Assembly (NCBI GenBank): GCA_025354525.1
Contig: JANXMS010000479.1
Coordinates: forward strand, 1-34,547
DNA from: Acidobacteriota bacterium
Lineage (GTDB): Bacteria > Acidobacteriota > Terriglobia > Bryobacterales > Bryobacteraceae
Direction of reading: 5' to 3'
Length of the DNA stretch: 34,547 nt
Part shown: one piece after another, positions 6,473-30,100 of the stretch
How the letters are laid out: each line of letters opens with the position of its first letter
Numbering within the stretch: the stretch's first letter is position 1
Program-made: the position numbers and the translations under genes
Notes under the pieces: generated by a model
The model's database searches: none
Told to the model about the DNA's origin: nothing
What the model saw: the letters and a program-made list of their open reading frames with translations, nothing else

Positions 6473-7285
6473 TTACGCACTTGGAACATTTTCCATAATG
6501 CGATGCGGGTGTGTGTAGACGTTACATCGCTCTTCGCGCAGGAAGCCGATGAGAGTGATGTTCTGTCGACGCGCGAGTTCGACCGCCATGGTAGAAGGCG
6601 CTCCTATGGAAGCGACAAAGGTTGTCTTCGCGGCGGCGCATTTTTGCAACAATTCGTAACCTGCCCGGCCACTCAGTAGAACTAAGTGTCCGGTAAGCGG
6701 CAGCGCGTCTAGTTGGAGACGATGGCCGACTAGTTTGTCGAGCGCGTTATGACGACCGATGTCTTCGCGAAGGCCGAGGAGTTCTCCTTCGAGGGAGAAA
6801 AGGGCGGCGGCGTGAAGGGCGCCGGTTCGTTGGAAAGCGGGTTGCGCGGCGGCTAGGCGCGCCGGAAGTTCGTAGAGCAGGTTGATCGGCATCGAGGCTT
6901 CGACGGAGGCCGAGGCCTCCGCCAAGGTGGGCAGTTCTTCGCGACCGCAGAGGCCGCACGCGGAGGTACGGATGAGGTGCCTCCGCGTTGCGCCAGCCGG
7001 TTCGATGCCGGCTTGCAGGGAGACGAGTACAGAGCCGGGTTGGGGATGAATAGCGGCGATTTCGGAGGCCGCCGTGATCCAGCCTTCGGCGTAAAGAAGT
7101 CCGCAGGCCAGATCGACCTCCTGCCCCGGCGTGCAAAGGGTGAGGCCGAGGGTGGCGATCTCCCGACGATCCTTGAACGAGTATTCGACGCGGACTTCGA
7201 GCGTCGCTTCGACGCCGAGCGAGTCGGTGGCCGGATGCGACCGACCACCTTCCCACCGAGCGATAGGAACCTGCTTGATCGGCAC
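6473..7285 (-). CDS. fdhD: formate dehydrogenase accessory sulfurtransferase FdhD
   Basis: SACGLCGREELP; TGALHAAALFSLEGELLGLREDIGRHNALDKLVG; LVLSGRAGYELLQKCA. Confidence 0.95.
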   Translation of the reverse strand: MPIKQVPIARWEGGRSHPATDSLGVEATLEVRVEYSFKDRREIATLGLTLCTPGQEVDLACGLLYAEGWITAASEIAAIHPQPGSVLVSLQAGIEPAGATRRHLIRTSACGLCGREELPTLAEASASVEASMPINLLYELPARLAAAQPAFQRTGALHAAALFSLEGELLGLREDIGRHNALDKLVGHRLQLDALPLTGHLVLLSGRAGYELLQKCAAAKTTFVASIGAPSTMAVELARRQNITLIGFLREERCNVYTHPHRIMENVPSA

Positions 7286-7288
7286 GGG

Positions 7289-8158
7289 CTACCGCAGACT
7301 TTGGAGCAAGCCGATGGCAGCTTTAATGTCGTCGACGTGGGCGAGCTTGGCTTGGTGACGATCGTTCATATCCTGTTCGAGAGAGACTTCGCGTTCGATG
7401 GTAAGGGCACCTTTGTAGCCGATGGCTTTCAGCGTGTTGACGAAATCGGCCATGCCGACGGAGCCCTGGCCGAGGGGCATTTCCGTGCCGAGGGTGCCGG
7501 GCTTGGACTTGTCGGGCCAGTTACCGTCCTTAGCGTGAACGGATGCGACGTGATGGCCGACGAGCTTGAGGGCGGCGATGGGTTCCGAGGTTCCGTAGAG
7601 GATGAGATTGGCGGGGTCGAAGTTGAGTTTGAGGTTGGGCCGTTGGACGTCTTCGAGAAAGTGCAGCAAAGAGGCCGCCGGTTCCTGGCCGGTTTCGAGG
7701 GCGAAGAGGATGCCGCGCTTGGCGGCGTAGTCACAGATGCGGCGGACCATCTCGCGGACGGCAATGTAGTTCGGGTGGTTATGATCTTCGGGGACAAAGC
7801 CGATGTGGCAAGCGAAAATGGGGACACCCATGGCGGCGGTGGCGTCAATGACTTCATAGGTACGGGCTTCGCGCTCGGCGCGGAAGGCGGTGGGGATGAA
7901 GCCGACGGTTTGCTCGACGGTGGGGATGTCGGCGTAGCTTTCGCCATTGTAGGCAGCGAAGACGGCGGTGACGACGAACTCTTCATCGGCGAGGGCCTGT
8001 TTGTATACTTCGCCGAGGCCGGCTAAATCAACGGACCCTGTAAAGCCGAGGTGGCCGCAGCGAATGCCGAGCGACTTCACGGCGCGGATCATCTTCAGCG
8101 GTTCGGTGTCGCCCCAAAACATCAGGCCGACTTCTAAATCATCGAGTGCAATTGCCAT
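7289..8158 (-). CDS. sugar phosphate isomerase/epimerase (TIM barrel)
   Basis: FALETGQEPAASLLHFLEDVQRPNLKLNFDPANLILYG...VHAKDGNWP...LGQGSVGMADFVNTLKAIGYKGALTIERE. Confidence 0.9.
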   Translation of the reverse strand: MAIALDDLEVGLMFWGDTEPLKMIRAVKSLGIRCGHLGFTGSVDLAGLGEVYKQALADEEFVVTAVFAAYNGESYADIPTVEQTVGFIPTAFRAEREARTYEVIDATAAMGVPIFACHIGFVPEDHNHPNYIAVREMVRRICDYAAKRGILFALETGQEPAASLLHFLEDVQRPNLKLNFDPANLILYGTSEPIAALKLVGHHVASVHAKDGNWPDKSKPGTLGTEMPLGQGSVGMADFVNTLKAIGYKGALTIEREVSLEQDMNDRHQAKLAHVDDIKAAIGLLQSLR

Positions 8159-19867: not shown

Positions 19868-21178
19868 TCAGACCTTCGAAGGCACCACGTACGGCTTGCG
19901 ATACTCCCGAGTCATCAGCTTATTCGCATCCGGAGCGTTCGAGAACTCCTTCTTCGCGTTGTCCCAGGCGAGCGAGCGCCCGGCGCGATAAGCGATGTTG
20001 CCGAAGTGACAGAGGTCGGCCGCAGCGGCCCCGATCTCGATTTCCGCGTTCAGGCTCTTATAGTTGCGGCTCTTGACGGCGGCCAGGAAGTTGTTCATGT
20101 GGGCCCCCGTCTCAGACTGGCCAGCGGCGCGCTTCACTTCCTTCACCACCTCGTGCTTCTCGCCCTTGTAGATGGTGTAGCCGTTCCCATCGACAGCCAT
20201 CCAGCCATCGACGCCATAGAATAAATTGCCGATCGTGTTGCCGCCACGGGTCTGCAACCCGCCTTCGCCACCGGTAATAAGTCCCCGGGTTTCGAACACG
20301 AGTTGCCGATCGCCGTAGTCAAACGTGCAGGTCTGGGTGTTCGGAGTCTCTTGGTCGTCGTCGTACTGGAATTTGCCGCCAGTGCCGCTCACCGACTTCA
20401 GGCCAACGTGGGAGTTCGGCAGGCCCAGACCCCAACGGGCGACGTCCATTTCGTGAACGCCCTGATTACCCATGTCGCCGTTGCCGGTGTCCCAAAACCA
20501 ATGCCAGTTGTAGGCAAACCGTAATGAGTTGAACGGTCGCAGCGGGGCGGGGCCGAGGAAAAGGTCCCAGTTCACTCCGGGCGGAGTCGGCTCATCGGCG
20601 CGCTTGCCGATGGACTTGCGGCGTTTGTATCAGAGGCCCTTCGCGAGATAAATCTTGCCGAGGACGCCATCCTTGAGTAGCTGCATCGCCTCCATTTTGT
20701 GGGGCATGCTGCGAGATTGGCTGCCGATTTGGCACATGCGCGAATATTTTCGCGCGGCCGCGATCATCTGCTGGCTTTCGAACGGGTTGTGGCTAGCCGG
20801 TTTTTCGCAATAGGCATCTTTGCCCGCCTGCATCGCCCAGATCGCGGCTAGGGCGTGCCAGTGGTTCGGGGTGGCGATGGAGACCGCGTCGATATCTTTA
20901 TCCTCGAACACCTTGCGCATGTCGCCGTACTCTTTGGCCTTGGGCCGCTGTTTGCGGGCGATGGTTGCCTGCGACTTCTCAAGCGCCGCCTGGTTCACGT
21001 CGCACAGGCCCGCGACGTCAGCGCCAGCAAGCTCCAAATATTCGCTCAAATGGTTGCTTCCGCGGCCACCTAAGCCAACAATGGCCATGCGAACGCGGTC
21101 GTTGGCACCCAAAATTCTATTCGCACCAATGGAGAGCGCGGCTGCGCCCGTAATTGTTAAGACCTCTCTGCGGTTCAT
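19868..21178 (-). CDS. Gfo/Idh/MocA family oxidoreductase with one in-frame TGA (candidate Sec codon at 20630-20632)
   Basis: Two adjacent ORFs in one frame: MNRREVLTITGAAALSIGANRI...VRMAIVGLGGRGSNHLSEY...YCEKPASHN...AKGL[TGA]YKRRKSIGKRADEPTPPGVNWDLFLGPAPLRPF...WFWDTGNGDMGNQGVHEMDVARWGL. Confidence 0.85.
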
Positions 21179-21222
21179 GCGAAAAGTATACTGGAAGTCT
21201 CCCCCGCCTGTGTTGCCCCATC

Positions 21223-24200
21223 ATGCCTACACCCAGTTCCGACGTTCCTTTTGTCCATCTCCATTGCCACACCGACTACTCGTTGCTCGACGGCGCGTGC
21301 GAAATCAAACAGTTAATGAAGCTGACGGCGGAGCTCGAACAGCCTGCCGTGGCGATGACCGATCACGGCAACATGTTCGGCGCGGTGGAGTTCCACAATG
21401 CCGCCAAAGACAAGGGCATTCATCCGGTGTTCGGCTGTGAGGTTTACGTCAACCAGAACGGCCACAAATCGCGGACGGAGAACGACCGCTATAACCATCT
21501 GGTGCTGCTGTGCGAAAACCAGCAGGGTTATCGAAACCTGATCAAGCTCGTTTCGACGGGGTACCTCGAAGGCTTTTACTATAAGCCGCGCGTCGACAAA
21601 GATCTGTTGGCCCAACATTCAGAGGGGATCATCTGCCTTTCGGCCTGCTTACGCGGCGATTTGAATGAGGCGCTGCTGGGTGACAACTATGCCAAGGCCC
21701 GTGATCTAGCGGGCACCTATACCGAGATCTTCGGGAAGAATAATTTCTTCCTCGAACTGCAGGATCATGGCTTGGAGCAGGACAAACGGCTGATCCCGGA
21801 GGTGGCCCGGCTGTCGGCCGAGATGGGGATTCCGCTTGTGGCGACCAACGATTCCCATTATCTGCGGAAGGACGACGCGCGCGCCCACGAACTTTTCATG
21901 TGTATTTCGACGGGCAAAACCGTGTCGGACCCGAACCGCATGCATTGGGACCAGCCCGAGTTCTACATGAAGTCGAAGGCGGAGATGGAGAAGATCTTCG
22001 GCGACTATCCGTCCGCACTGCGGTCGCCGTATGAGATCGCGATGCGGTGCAAAGTCGCGCTCGAAAAGGTGAAGGAGCCCTTCCCGAAGTTCGACGTTCC
22101 GCCCACGCACTCGATCGACACTTACTTCGAATACGTCTGCCGCGAAGGCTTTGAGAAGCGGCGGCCACGCCTCGAACATATGCGCGCGAAAGGCACGCTG
22201 AAAGAGCCGCTCGAAGCTTATGCCGAACGGCTGAGCCGAGAGATCAAGATGATCCAGCAGATGCAGTTCTCGGGCTACTTCCTGATCGTTTGGGACTTCA
22301 TCCGCTACGCCCGCCAATCGTCCATTCCCGTCGGCCCAGGCCGCGGTTCCGCCGCCGGCTCGCTCGTCTCCTACGCGATGGAGATCACCGACATCGACCC
22401 CCTCCAGTACGGCTTGCTCTTCGAACGGTTCCTGAATCCAGAACGCATTTCGATGCCCGATATCGATACCGACTTCGAGCCGAAAGGCCGAGGCAAAGTG
22501 ATCCAGTACGTCACCGAAAAGTACGGTCGCGAGCAAGTCGCCCAGATCATCACCTTTGGAACCCTGGGCTCGAAAGCGGCCATCAAAGACGTCGGTCGCG
22601 TACTCGATATGACGTTCGCCGAAGTCGACAAGCTCACCAAGCTGGTCCCGCCAACGTTGAATATCAGGCTGAAAGACGCCTTCGCGCAGGAGCCAGGCTT
22701 CGATATCGCGGCCAAGGCGGATCCGCGCGTGAAGGAGGTGATGGAGGTGGCCCTGCGCCTGGAAGGAATGGCGCGGAATGCCTCCGTCCACGCCGCCGGC
22801 GTCGTCATTTCGCCCCAACCCCTCCGTGACCTCGTCCCCCTCTACAAAACCAACAAAGACGAAATCGTGACCCAGTACGACATGTCGGGCTTAGAGAAGC
22901 TCGGCCTGTTGAAAATGGATTTTTTGGGTCTCACCACCCTCTCCATCGTCGACGACTCCCTCAAGCTCATCGAGGCCATCCACGGCGTGAAGCTGGTCAT
23001 GGAAGACATTCCCCTCGACGACCAGAAAACCTACGAGGAGATCTTCTGGAAAGGGCGAACCTCCGGCGTCTTCCAGTTTGAATCTTCCGGCATGCAGGAC
23101 ATTCTCCGCCGCTCCAAACCAGAGCGGATTGAGGACCTTTGCGCGCTGAATGCGCTATACCGGCCAGGCCCGATTCAGGGCGGCATGATCGACGACTTCA
23201 TCGCGCGAAAGCACGGCAAGAAGGAAGTTGTTTTCGACTTCAAGGAGTTGGAGCCGCTGCTGGGCGAGACTTACGGGGTCATCGTCTATCAGGAGCAGGT
23301 GATGCAGATTTCGAACGTCATCGCGGGCTACAGCCTGGGCGAAGCGGACCTTTTGCGCCGCGCGATGGGCAAGAAGGAAGCATCGGCCATGGCCGAGCAA
23401 AAGCAGCGTTTTTTGAGCGGTTCCTCCAAGCTCGGCCACAATGCGAAGAAGGCCGACAAGCTGTTCGATCTGATGGCGCAGTTCGCTGGCTACGGCTTCA
23501 ACAAGTCGCACTCAGCGGCCTATGCGTATATGGCCTGGGTGACGGCGTATCTGAAAACGCACTACACGATTGAGTTCATGTCGGCCTTGTTGACTTCGGA
23601 AACGGGGAACACCGATAAGGTCGTCAAGTACATCAACGAGTGCAAGGATATGGGCATCAAGGTTCTGCCTCCGGACGTGGCGGCCTCGCTGCTGAGCTTC
23701 GCTCCGGACGGCCAAGCGGTTCGCTTCGGCTTGGGGGCGATCAAGAACCTGGGTCAGGGCGCCGTCGAGTCGATCTTAGCGGCGCGCGCGCAGGTGGGCA
23801 AGTTCAAAAGCTTCTTCAACTTTTGCGAAAGTGTCGACGTCGGCTCCGTCAACAAGCGTGCGCTCGAATCGTTGATCAAGGCCGGAGCCATGGACGGCCT
23901 CGACGGCACGCGGAGCCAGTTGTTCGCGATGATTGACCGCGCGATGGACCACGCCCAGCGGACCAAAAAGGACAAAGACAGCGGCCAGGGCGGACTCTTC
24001 GCTGACCTCTTTGGCGGACCGGCCGAGGACGCCCCCCCCGAGCCCTTGCCCAACGTGAAGGACTGGTCGCAGACCGAGAAGCTGAACGGCGAAAAAGAGA
24101 TGATTGGCTTCTACGTCACCGGGCACCCCCTGGACGCTTTTGCCGACAAAATCTCCGAGTTGCAAACCCACGCCAGTGACGGGCTCGACGATTGCCAGAA

Positions 24201-24711
24201 GCATGAAGAGGTGCGGCTTTGCGGCATTCTTACGGGCATCCAAAAGCGCCGCAACAAGAAGGGAGAGCTGTGGGCGGCGATGCGCCTGGAAGACCAGAAG
24301 GGGAGTCTTGAGGCGATGTGTTTCGCTAGCAAAATAGAAGAGCTCAATCAATATCTGATCGACGATCTCCCCGTTATGGCAATCTGTAAAGTGATGCCGG
24401 AAGAAGGTTCGGCACCGAAGGTCAGCCTGCAGGAACTTGTCCCGCTCGCCAAGGCGCTGGTGAAGCTGCCGAGTATCATCGCCATTCGCGTCAAGATCCG
24501 GGAGACAAACGGAATCGACCCGGCAACGGAGCTGCGGACCCTCTTCGAACGGAAGCCCGGCAACGCCCAAGTACGTCTGAAACTCGAGAAATCGCAGGAC
24601 TTCATCGCCATGATGGACGTGCCGCTGCGGGTCCGTCCAGACAAAGAGTTCAAGGCGGAAATTGAACGGATCTGTGGCGGCGACGCATTCGAGGTACTCG
24701 AAAAAGCTTAG
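21223..24711 (+). CDS. dnaE: DNA polymerase III subunit alpha
   Basis: PHP domain VHLHCHTDYSLLDGACEIKQL; GPGRGSAAGSLVSYAMEITDIDPLQYGLLFERFLNPERISMPDIDTDF; ORF continues to 24711. Confidence 0.98.
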   Translation: MPTPSSDVPFVHLHCHTDYSLLDGACEIKQLMKLTAELEQPAVAMTDHGNMFGAVEFHNAAKDKGIHPVFGCEVYVNQNGHKSRTENDRYNHLVLLCENQQGYRNLIKLVSTGYLEGFYYKPRVDKDLLAQHSEGIICLSACLRGDLNEALLGDNYAKARDLAGTYTEIFGKNNFFLELQDHGLEQDKRLIPEVARLSAEMGIPLVATNDSHYLRKDDARAHELFMCISTGKTVSDPNRMHWDQPEFYMKSKAEMEKIFGDYPSALRSPYEIAMRCKVALEKVKEPFPKFDVPPTHSIDTYFEYVCREGFEKRRPRLEHMRAKGTLKEPLEAYAERLSREIKMIQQMQFSGYFLIVWDFIRYARQSSIPVGPGRGSAAGSLVSYAMEITDIDPLQYGLLFERFLNPERISMPDIDTDFEPKGRGKVIQYVTEKYGREQVAQIITFGTLGSKAAIKDVGRVLDMTFAEVDKLTKLVPPTLNIRLKDAFAQEPGFDIAAKADPRVKEVMEVALRLEGMARNASVHAAGVVISPQPLRDLVPLYKTNKDEIVTQYDMSGLEKLGLLKMDFLGLTTLSIVDDSLKLIEAIHGVKLVMEDIPLDDQKTYEEIFWKGRTSGVFQFESSGMQDILRRSKPERIEDLCALNALYRPGPIQGGMIDDFIARKHGKKEVVFDFKELEPLLGETYGVIVYQEQVMQISNVIAGYSLGEADLLRRAMGKKEASAMAEQKQRFLSGSSKLGHNAKKADKLFDLMAQFAGYGFNKSHSAAYAYMAWVTAYLKTHYTIEFMSALLTSETGNTDKVVKYINECKDMGIKVLPPDVAASLLSFAPDGQAVRFGLGAIKNLGQGAVESILAARAQVGKFKSFFNFCESVDVGSVNKRALESLIKAGAMDGLDGTRSQLFAMIDRAMDHAQRTKKDKDSGQGGLFADLFGGPAEDAPPEPLPNVKDWSQTEKLNGEKEMIGFYVTGHPLDAFADKISELQTHASDGLDDCQKHEEVRLCGILTGIQKRRNKKGELWAAMRLEDQKGSLEAMCFASKIEELNQYLIDDLPVMAICKVMPEEGSAPKVSLQELVPLAKALVKLPSIIAIRVKIRETNGIDPATELRTLFERKPGNAQVRLKLEKSQDFIAMMDVPLRVRPDKEFKAEIERICGGDAFEVLEKA

Positions 24712-24751
24712 GCGCTCATGCTATCGTTTGGCCCTGTCGCAGGATGCTGAT

Positions 24752-25476
24752 CCCTACCCAATCGTGAGCGGAAGGGTGCAGACGAGGGCGCTCGAATACC
24801 ACGTCACCGATCATTGCAATCTTCGTTGTGACCCCTGCTGTTCGTACTCTCCGATCCTGAAAAAGTGGTGCGCTGATCCGGTGCAGTTTGAGAAAGATTT
24901 GCTGCTCGTTCGGCGGGTGGTAGAGCCCGCAGTTCGCCAAGATCGTCCGCGGAGAGCCGCTGCTGCATCCGGAGATCCAAACGCTGTTGATGATACCCAT
25001 CGGCTCAAGGTTGGCCCTCGGATTCAATTGACGACGAATGCGCTGCTGATCAAGAAACTCTCGGCGAAATAGTGGGACTGGTTGCAGATCATCTCGGTGC
25101 CGCTTTACTCGGAGCCGACGCTGCCGAAGGATTTGATTCGCTATATCGCAAAGGAAGCCGCCGATACGTTCGCCGATTGCTGGATTTGGCGCCGCTGCAA
25201 CACGATCAAGAACGGGCGGTTTTACTTCTGCACGCGACTGCGGTACGTGGAGAAGCTTGCTATGGATGGGCCGAAGTTTCAAGGCGACGGGGTGGCCGTG
25301 GACGACCCGAATGCGGTCGCGCTTGCACACCGGATTCAAACGCATCGGACACAGACAGATCCGCTCCATTCGTGCTTCCTCTGCAATGGGGGCAGGCGCA
25401 CGTGGAGATCCACCGGCAGTTAACTCCGAGCGCGATTCGAACCAAACTCGAGGGGCTGGTACAGCTTACGGCATGA
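24752..25476 (+). pseudogene. decayed radical SAM protein
   Basis: CX3CX2C in VTDHCNLRCDPCCSYSPILKKW; GEPLLHPEIQTLLM in another frame; CWIWRRCNTIKNGRFYFCTRLRYVEKLA after an in-frame TAG; further frame change at the end. Confidence 0.8.
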
Positions 25477-25509
25477 CGCTACGAAGTTCGCTGATTGAGG
25501 CTTTTGTTT

Positions 25510-25764
25510 GGCGACAATTAGAAACGACCGAAACGAAAACTACCAAAGCCGACTTGCCACCGGCGGAGGGTGCTCCCGTGGCTTCATGCTGACGGTCGGC
25601 GGGCTCGTAGCCCACCTGGGATGGCACAATGTGTTAAATCCTGGGGCTTGGGACAAAGCCCCATCTCATCCAACGCCCAGCGGCATCTGCCGAATGCACA
25701 TCAAAACACCTGCTGAAGGTGCTGCAAATGTAATTGTCGCTAAAAGCGGTTCCTAATTGTCGCC
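25510..25764. mobile_element. TIR-bounded MITE-like element
   Basis: Left GGCGACAATTAGAAACGAC (25510-25528) versus right GCGGTTCCTAATTGTCGCC (25746-25764), inverted, 16/19 matches; extra subterminal TAATTGTCGC near 25731. Confidence 0.55.
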
Positions 25765-25793
25765 CATCAGGCTTAGCCCGGGACCAATGCGGT

Positions 25794-26465
25794 GGCCGTC
25801 GATTCGTGGGTTCTCGCGCGGTTGCTTCGGGAGTGGTGGCTCGGCATACGACGGTCTTCCAATTGCGCGACGACAAGGCCGCCTACTTCGCTGGCCTCAC
25901 GGAGTTCCTGCGAGCCGCCGGTTTTGAAAGGCTCCTGATCGCCGGCGGCGAGGCTGCGGCGCTATCTTTTCCTCACCGGTTGCTAAGGCCCGCCCCGTTC
26001 TGCGCCCGCCCTGGGGCGGACGCGATTTGGGCTGAATCTGGGTGGCGGCGACCGCTGGCGATCGACCTGGGCCAAACGCAGATGAAGAGGAGGACCGTGA
26101 CTGAGAACAGAGCGTTCCCCCGAGACTTGCCCTTCGGCGGAAGGGCCCTACCCGAGGACGAAGGCCGCAAACGGCTGCGGACGTTTGTGCAAAATGCCTT
26201 GGCCGCCGCAGGCGATTACGACGGCGTCGTGCTCGGCTTGCCAAGCCGGATTACGTCCGAAGGCGACGCGGAGTCGTCGACCTATCCTGGGCTCTATGGG
26301 CCGGTCAAGCCACTGTTCGGCTCGCTGTTCCAGGACGTGCCTTGGGTGGTGCCACACGACTCGGTGCTGACGGCCCGCGGCTACCCTCCGGAGACGACGC
26401 AGAAAACGCTGGCGCTGACGATGGGCTTTGGAGTCGGAGCCGCTCTATGGCACGCCTGGTGTTAG
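25794..26465 (+). pseudogene. probable remnant of a sugar-kinase/ROK-like protein
   Basis: FLRAAGFERLLIAGGEAAALS; LAIDLGQTQMKRR; DGVVLGLPSRITSEGDAESSTYPGLYGPVKPLFGSLF; TTQKTLALTMGFGVGAALW; family uncertain. Confidence 0.4.
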
Positions 26466-27169
26466 TTCTGTCGCCTCATCGGGATGACGCTGTGCTGTCC
26501 TGCTCCTCGCTGATGGCCTCCCGGCGGTCGCTGATCGCTACCTTTTTCACGAAGGGCGATGACAGCTATGAGGCCCGAGTTGGAAGCGGTGAAGATCATC
26601 GGCGCAAGGGCGCGCCATTTGGGTTTTCACGACGCCCCGTTTCGTTCGGTGGAGTATCGAAACTTCCTCGGCATCGTCGGCGATAACGCTAGGCCGACCA
26701 TAAAAGTTGAAAAGGTGATGGTACGTCTTCTGGAGGAGCTTGACCCGGGACTGGTCCTGGCACCGCTCGGGGTCGGGAACCCTGGGTACCATCGGCTACT
26801 CCGCCCGGCGGCGAAAAAAGGGTCCGCCGGGAGCGATTGCTCTACTCCGAAGATCGGCCTCACTCCTTCGTCCACGATCAAATCGACGGCACTGTCCGCA
26901 CTGCGCCAGAGCCCGGTTGGAAGAGCTCCTTCGCCGCCCACTACGTCCAAACCTATCTCGGCGGCACCGCGCCGGAGGCGGTGAAGAACGGGTTTGCGAA
27001 GGGGAAGCCGTTTTATTGGGTCGAACCGGCTCGGCCGTTTCCCCCGCTTGACTTGACCGCGCTGCGAGATTACAAAACCCAACTCGGCGACTGGTTTAAA
27101 ACTCCGGCCGCGATCGCGTCTCTGTACGCCTCGCGGCCGGAGCGGTATTGGACTAGAACGCCAGCTTAA
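26447..27169 (+). pseudogene. frameshifted PIG-L/LmbE-family deacetylase
   Basis: MARLVLVLSPHRDDAVLSCSSLMA (PHxDD) in one frame, RPELEAVKIIGARARHLGFHDAPFRS...LAPLGVGNPGYHRLL in a second, LLYSEDRPHSFV...AAHYVQTYL back in the first. Confidence 0.8.
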
Positions 27170-30100
27170 GCGCCAACTGCACAACGCGCCAGCTTTCGCC
27201 GTTCTGGTTAGTGGTCGACGAACTCGCCGTCGAGAGCGACACGCAACAAGCTTGAGCGAACACGTTCGAGTTGATGGCCGGGCTGCCGACGGAGGCGTCG
27301 CGCGGATTCCGGAAATTGGCGTGGTTTAGAGCGTTGAACATCTCGGTGCGGAAGGTGAGCCGGAAGCGTTCGCTGAGCTGGAAGCCCTTCGAAATACCGA
27401 GGTCGACATTCCAATACGAAGGACCCTGGAACACGTTACGGCCGATGCCGAGTTCCCCAGGGGCGGGCGCGGCGAACTGGCTGGCGTCAGCGAAGAAGAC
27501 CGGACCGATGACGCCGGCCTTGTCTTGCAAACGGGCCCGCGGCAGACTCGTCACCCCCGGGGCGAGGGCAGCCCGGCTCTGGGCCGTTCCGTTCGCCGTC
27601 AGGAAGCCGGAACGGACCGTGAACGGCTCGCCCGATTGGTAGGTGTAAATCGTGTTGACGCTCCAACCCCCGATGACGGTATTGACGACCCGGTTCGCGT
27701 TGCGGAAGAGCGGCTTGCCCTTGCCAACCGGCAATTCGTAAATGCCGCTGAGGTTCAACACATGGCGCTGGTCGAAGTCGCTCCGGCCACGTTCGTTCTT
27801 GTAGTTGCGACCATCCGCCGGGGTGCGGGCATTGGTCGTTGTAAGACCGCCGCCAGAGGTCGCCGCCACCGGATCGGTCGAAAGGTTATCGATAGATTTC
27901 GACAATGTATAGCCGAGATTGAAGAGGAGCCCGGCCGTGTCGAAGCGCTTGCGGAGCGTGGTCTGAAGGCCGTGGTAGGTGGAGTCAGCGCCGTTGTCGA
28001 GCAATAGGATCTGCGCGAACTGTTGATTGGGCCTCAGCTTGGCGGCTAGCGTCGTCTGCTCAATACGGACGGCCATATTGCCCGCGGCGTTCTGGTTGGG
28101 GCTGAGGTCAGTGATCGAAGCCGCCGAGTTGGCAAACGCGCTATTCATGATCCCCTGCTGGATCAGCGGTACGGAGACTGCCCCAGAGCACGCCGTACCG
28201 TTGGCCATCGTGCCGTCCGGACGGCAACCGCCGCCGAGCCCGACGTTACGCTGCATGGCCACGAAGCTTGGCAGAATAGGCTTGGCGTCGATCTGGTTGA
28301 CGTCCCAGCTCCGATAGAGCCGAGTGCCACGGCGACCGACGTAGCCGACGCTGCCGATGTAGCTCTTGCCGAGGTCCCGTTGAATCGTGAGGTTCCACAT
28401 GTGAACCGTTGGTAGCTTCAGATTCGGGTCGAAGATCCGGGCGGGCGGGGCCGTATTTTGCGTGGCGAGGGCCGGGGTCAACTGGCTGGATGGCTTCGCC
28501 GTAGGCGGTGGCAGTTGGTTGGGGAACTGGCTCAGTCGAACGTCCGGTACGCTGGCACACCCCGCCGTGGAGGCGCCGCCGACGGTGGAGGTGCAGCGGT
28601 AAATCTGGCCGGGAACAGCCGAAGCGACCGAGGTTACCTGGAACGTCGCGATGGGGTCGAACGCCATGGTGTAGCCGGTGCGAATGACGGTCTTGGAGGA
28701 GTTGCCCGGTGCCCAGGTGAGAGCGATGCGGGGTGCCAAGGCACCCAAATTCCAGTTCTTGTACCAACGCTCAGCTTGGACAAAGGTGACGAGCCCCTCG
28801 CTGCCATCAATGTTCTTATTCGGCACGTAGGTCCGGCCGCCAGCCTCGCGAGGCGGGGGGTTGACCTCCCAGCGGACGCCGTAGGAGATCGAGATGTTCT
28901 TGCGAAGTTTGAAGTCGTCCTGCGCAAAGAAGTTGAGCTGCTTCGTACGCTGGCCTTGCGCCCATAAGGAAACGGTTTTGTCGCCAGTCTGGAAGGGCAG
29001 GAAGGTATCGCTCTTCAGGTCGCCGATGAAGTTGTGCGATAGCTGCGCCGGAATGCCGAGCAGGTCGTTGACCATGCCTTGCAGGCGGTTCAGGTCGTTC
29101 GAAGCGATGCCAGGCGAAGTGGCCGTGCTCAACGCCGGGAAGGTGAAGCCAGCGGGTGGGCGGATGGTGCGGGAGAGTGAAATGGATGGCGTCAGGGCGA
29201 CCCCGCCGACGTCGCCGCGCCGGTCGTTGTGCTGATAGATGCGGAGGTTGCCGCCGAACTTCATCACGTGCGCACCAGCGATGTAGGTGACGTTGTTGAT
29301 GATTTGGTAGGTGTTGACGGCGCGCTGAGTTCGTGGTGTCGCGGTGTAATCGACGTCCGAGTTGTTGAACGTGAAACGCGGTGTATTCGGGAACGCTGGG
29401 TTCGCTTCACCTTGCGTGAAGAGGAAGTCAAAGCGGGAGTAACCGACGGTCAACTCGTTAACCAAACGCGGCGTTACTACGCTGCGAAGGCCAACGGCGA
29501 CGTTGTACGCCGGGCGGAAGACCTCGCCACGGGTAGGGAAGCCGGGAAGCACCTGGGGACGACCGTTCAGCGGGTCGCCGCCGAGGGTGTTCTGCTCCGC
29601 CGCCAGGATGCGCCCAAACAGGTTGTGGCGGTCACTGATCACATGATCGATTCGGCCGAGGTACTGCGGTCCGCGAATCTGGAACGGGGTGTTCCAAACG
29701 AAGTTACCGGTGTTGAGGCCATCGCCGGCCGAGTACTGGTTGGGAGCCGGGTAGGCGCCGAGGACGCCCTTAACGGCGGGGTCGAGGCCCCGGCGGAGCG
29801 GGTCGTTCTGGAAGATATTGTAGCTGGCGACGCAGTTGGCATCGGTGGGGCTGGCGCAGGCGCGGACGCCGGAGGCGAGGTTGCCCGTGGCCCGGTCGAC
29901 GAGCAGTGGGGTGTTTTGCGTAATGGTTTGGCCGTTGACCGTGAGCGGGTTGCGCTGGTCCACGACGAAGTAACGGAAGATGCCTGTCAGCGCCATCTGG
30001 TTGTAAAGGTCGACGGACTCGCCGAAGGCCTTGTCAACGGGGTCCGCGAAATTGACCTTCTGGCCCTGCCAGGAGCCGAAGAAGAATGTCCTGTTCTTCT

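Follow-up and report, generated by a model that had tools for sequence, protein, structure and literature searches.

The window analysed here, a stretch of 34,547 nucleotides from an Acidobacteriota genome, contains a gene of the Gfo/Idh/MocA oxidoreductase family that is interrupted by an in-frame TGA (Table 1), which raises the question of whether this codon is read as selenocysteine (Sec) or results from a recent nonsense mutation or sequencing error. Both readings were offered in the original prediction; the nonsense or error half is supported, whereas Sec fails on the search for a SECIS element and on the comparison with relatives. The gene itself is as predicted, one shared frame broken by one TGA: reading from the start at 21178, the TGA at codon 183 is the only stop met before the terminal TGA (19870..19868), it is present in the assembly and no extra lesions follow it, in agreement with the claim that this gene shows no further decay. 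Members of the family combine an NAD-binding Rossmann domain that carries an EKP motif with a C-terminal alpha/beta domain, and membership is indicated here by the Pfam domains GFO_IDH_MocA (PF01408) and GFO_IDH_MocA_C2 (PF19051), one in each half, and by an EKP motif (E125-K126-P127) that is invariant in an alignment of 29 sequences. The model of the read-through protein, of fair confidence (mean pLDDT 82.7), matches the fold of the glucoside-3-dehydrogenase AL3. An uninterrupted paralogue, 63% identical, is encoded elsewhere in the same genome.

Table 1. Coordinates of the interrupted gene and its parts in the window, and of two further genes of the host genome (G000) with an internal in-frame stop codon.
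Feature	Position	Strand	Remarks
Gfo/Idh/MocA-family oxidoreductase gene	19868..21178	-	436 codons, one interruption; Tat-like N-terminus MNRREVLTITGAAALSIGA
In-frame TGA, codon 183	20632..20630	-	Invariant Cys column; TGC in closest orthologue
N-terminal NAD-binding half, 182 codons	20633..21178	-	Product if UGA terminates; PF01408, E 1.7e-21
C-terminal half, 3' of the TGA	19868..20629	-	PF19051 (GFO_IDH_MocA_C2); dN/dS 0.032 vs G094 orthologue
7-bp hairpin CATCGGC-AAGCGC-GCCGATG, proposed SECIS	20593..20612	-	Inverted repeat, on the best reading arising from coding sequence
Sec formate dehydrogenase alpha (fdhA)	L169:5208-8243 (G000:C578)	-	TGA at 7634, NQSRL-U-HGPTVASL
AbiEii-family (type IV toxin-antitoxin) gene	L177:2403-3305 (G000:C392)	+	Single internal TAG at 2898

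The TGA had been predicted to fall at a Cys position and this is borne out by the homologues, which read KGLC(Y/F)KRR. Codon 183 is Cys in all 81 close homologues (53-72% identity; loci from the GTDB genome collection), encoded by TGC in 64 and by TGT in 17, and C183 is likewise invariant in the 29-sequence alignment, the UGA thus aligning with a conserved Cys as in a selenoprotein; three further, distant paralogues carry Gly, Val or Tyr at this column. There are 145 single substitutions that would create a stop in this gene and only six of them lie on Cys codons, three at a Cys that is invariant in outgroups. A stop landing at such a Cys by chance is therefore a 2-4% event, and the position of the TGA genuinely favours Sec, perhaps by a factor of 25-50.

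The host genome (7.32 Mb in 633 contigs, 97% complete) contains selA, selB, selC and selD, each scoring over its family cut-off (selC at 74 bits), as the original prediction asked of a genome that decodes Sec. The host selD (contig C549) is itself Sec-encoded, with a TGA at the Sec/Cys position (AAG-U-ASKLSPKVL) that is conserved in 15 of the 16 selD-bearing genomes of the genus (L114, L147-L161). A SECIS core, GTCCAAA-GGT-TTTGGA, is kept wherever selD is in its Sec form; G086 (L147) has the Cys form and has lost the stem. An ORF-pair scan located a Sec formate dehydrogenase, fdhA, in which a stem with a GUU loop lies 19 nt after the UGA. Its presence in the genome is in line with the fdhD gene of the window (6473..7285, minus strand), which had been considered compatible with such an enzyme. 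On this gene content the organism very probably does decode Sec, and missing machinery gives no ground for discarding the interrupted gene; given the invariant Cys column as well, selenocysteine needed proper testing.

A hairpin downstream of the UGA had been proposed as the SECIS. Its 17-nt spacer, the stem CAUCGGC-AAGCGC-GCCGAUG and the lower pairs are all as first described, and of the claimed match to bacterial SECIS geometry the stem and spacing hold, whereas the loop does not. The bSECIS rule calls for a loop of 3-9 nt with a G in the first two positions and a stem of 4-16 bp, lying 16-37 nt from the UGA with an MFE of at most -7.5 (PMC13188914). A small script that checked loop, stem and spacing as this rule specifies them found no match in the candidate, and matched all 16 of the true Sec genes of the genus that served as positive controls (selD in 15 genomes and the host's own fdhA). 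The expected stem was recovered in 15 of these 16, the loops being GGU or GUU at 19-20 nt from the UGA; among the 15 selD genes the match is the conserved GGU-loop stem in 14, a weaker alternative stem ranking first in that of L149; the host's two clear SECIS elements, in selD and fdhA, both have G-U loops at this distance. The candidate loop, AAGCGC, lies at 24 nt from the UGA and has no G in its first two positions. When the G rule is set aside the candidate stem ranks 4th of 113, and the hairpin does not exceed chance expectation (z = -1.6 against dinucleotide shuffles). Furthermore, a contiguous stem of at least 7 bp arises in 11% of synonymous resamplings and, in the same range, in 15 of 97 distinct Cys homologues; repeats of the form ATCGG...CCGAT occur in Cys homologues at nearly the same offset, and two of these (L039 and L067) form a comparable or stronger stem, AUCGGGC...GCCCGAU, displaced by one base. 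Given that the paired bases belong to the Ile-Gly and Pro/Ala-Asp codons of a conserved SIGxx(P/A)D segment, the hairpin would appear to be a by-product of coding. An Rfam scan of the region at relaxed threshold returned only a chance match to the hya RNA (E 7.3).

Four synonymous differences from the closest orthologue fall in the stem region, and three of them give better pairing in the copy with the TGA. These changes were considered as a sign of selection for a SECIS and rejected as such, stems of this kind not being unusual in the resamplings and the Cys homologues; they represent weak evidence for Sec.

The closest orthologue among the matches listed is that of G094, a member of the same genus (96% identical in amino acids, 87% in nucleotides); it has TGC at codon 183 and no stop, and the G094 genome is itself Sec-decoding, with SelB and a Sec-SelD. 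In a family search of 237 genomes, 192 of which gave a match, no other TGA at codon 183 was found among the strong matches listed and inspected, which either lacked an internal stop or were flagged for one. The loci flagged for an internal TGA, TAA or TAG that were retrieved again all carry Cys at codon 183, except for a distant paralogue in the host's own genome that has Trp, and the stops observed in them lie at or near the C-terminus. A 20-base motif around GL-TGA-(F/Y)K gave 13 matches in 396 genomes of the phylum, only that of the window being in a Gfo gene, and the searches found no second genome of the same species. In the Sargasso Sea set, new selenoprotein families were accepted when a TGA was present in at least one independent sequence, and given the possibility of sequencing error a single TGA sequence remains a candidate only (PMC1088965); for the interrupted gene no independent sequence with TGA at the column was found.

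Comparison of the host and G094 orthologues gave a dS of 0.86 and a dN of 0.022, with dN/dS of 0.015 before the TGA and 0.032 after it. Judged from these rates, purifying selection acted on the C-terminal half for almost the entire divergence between the two, and its strength up to near the present implies either a very recent stop or an error. The selection pattern, read in this way, is as compatible with an error, or with a stop too recent for decay to have followed, as with Sec, and it excludes an old pseudogene. For a baseline of interruptions, the ORF-pair scan was applied to a 427-kb sample of the host genome and gave 86 flags, most of which were gene junctions or antisense frames by inspection. 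Three clear mid-gene stops were found: the Sec formate dehydrogenase, the TAG of the AbiEii-type gene, which is an ordinary nonsense lesion spanned by a Pfam domain, and the candidate TGA. Scaled up, and only roughly since the estimate derives from one event, this amounts to ~17 nonsense lesions per genome, each with a 2-4% chance, or ~0.3-0.7 Cys coincidences; with so few in-frame stops in the sample, the genome-wide expectation is below one, and a coincidental nonsense change or error at a Cys is not very improbable.

With regard to the surroundings of the gene, the neighbouring DNA polymerase III alpha-type gene (21154..24711) has an intact frame. At 24700-27200, 4 kb away, the window contains apparent multi-frameshift genes, for which decay and assembly error are both possible; a start resembling radical-SAM, VTDHCNLRCDPCC, and a stretch resembling PIG-L, SPHRDDAVLSCSS, were named there by eye, broken over several frames, and the ORFs tested from this region gave no Pfam match. 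Synteny with the closest relative (G094:C412) stops exactly at the 3' end of the interrupted gene (window position 19870), beyond which lies a Fic-domain gene in the window and, in G094, a facing GAPDH-like gene; this arrangement suggests a rearrangement or insertion at the 3' end.

In weighing these observations, it is highly likely that a recent nonsense mutation or an assembly error, the two taken together, explains the TGA. The close orthologue is uninterrupted, the lesion is single and there is no long-term relaxation of selection, and the AbiEii TAG and the apparent frameshift genes represent other damage in the same assembly. The change would be a recent one from TGC or TGT to TGA in a normal Cys-containing dehydrogenase gene, or alternatively an error of base-calling, assembly or strain consensus with the same outcome in the sequence. 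If the TGA is real in the cell, the UGA would end translation at codon 183 and the product would be an NAD-binding domain that lacks the substrate-binding half, in which case the uninterrupted paralogue may cover the function. The reading of the UGA as selenocysteine, by contrast, requires a species-specific Sec-containing Gfo/Idh/MocA protein that arose from a Cys ancestor inside a single genus, served by an atypical SECIS at 20593..20612 without the customary G at the head of its loop, and is very improbable. It draws on the invariant Cys column, on a genome with selA, selB, selC, a Sec-encoded selD and a Sec formate dehydrogenase, on a frame and selection intact after the UGA, on the small chance of a stop at such a Cys (less than one coincidence being expected) and on the synonymous differences that improve the hairpin. 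The missing bSECIS match is also tempered by the minority of known bacterial selenoprotein genes that depart from the SECIS model, bSECISearch having missed at least 13% of the selenoprotein genes in 20 genomes (PMC12013277). However, every one of the 16 true Sec genes of the genus that were tested does match, the true elements of the host genome have GGU or GUU loops at 19-20 nt against AAGCGC at 24 nt in the candidate, and the TGA is a single occurrence whose nearest orthologue has Cys. In addition, the residue of the AL3 chain (8tdf) aligned with codon 183 is not Cys, and Gfo/Idh/MocA catalysis is not known to involve a redox thiol, which likewise counts against Sec. Neither Gfo nor MocA is mentioned in a 2026 review of prokaryotic selenoprotein families, and a literature search found no paper joining selenoproteins with Gfo/Idh/MocA. 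The nonsense or error explanation is favoured because a new Sec family private to one species has a low prior, the SECIS test failed where the controls succeeded and the nearest relative has Cys, and also because a coincidental stop at a Cys is not so improbable across the genome.

It could also be proposed that the UGA is read through at a low level by a near-cognate tRNA, or that the gene works as two polypeptides, given that the frame is open and conserved after the stop. This is hardly credible for three reasons: no homologue among the close homologues and family matches listed is split at codon 183; the first downstream candidate start in the mechanical ORF list, GTG at 20575, is already inside the substrate domain; and the evidence of selection predates the stop and needs no readthrough to account for it. 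In summary, the interruption is judged to be an ordinary one.

The case is useful mainly as a worked negative. Even in a genome that decodes Sec, the combination of a UGA at a Cys that never varies with a stable hairpin downstream does not suffice for Sec, since such a hairpin can come from the coding sequence, here the Ile-Gly and Pro/Ala-Asp codons. Were Sec nonetheless true, a large family of NAD-dependent sugar dehydrogenases would join the selenoproteome and the gene would show the gain of Sec with a non-canonical SECIS.

Among known systems, the best match in both sequence and fold is the Alistipes glucoside-3-dehydrogenase AL3 (PDB 8tdf/8tdh) of the Gfo/Idh/MocA superfamily (phmmer E 2.3e-35; Foldseek E 1.5e-22 and TM 0.74 with the predicted model). 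AL3 differs in being only 24% identical and in having a residue other than Cys opposite codon 183. The Cys orthologues of the Acidobacteriota, that of G094 and others of the same family, are far closer, with 96% amino acid identity to G094 in the same frame and a flanking DNA polymerase III alpha gene shared between G094 and the window; they differ in their codon at the column of the TGA, which is TGC or TGT. The host's own selD and fdhA resemble the candidate in their single in-frame TGA, theirs at a known Sec position, and in their conserved frame. However, theirs is followed by a GGU- or GUU-loop SECIS 19-20 nt downstream that the candidate lacks, and the TGA of selD, unlike that of the interrupted gene, is conserved in all but one of the genus members that carry selD.
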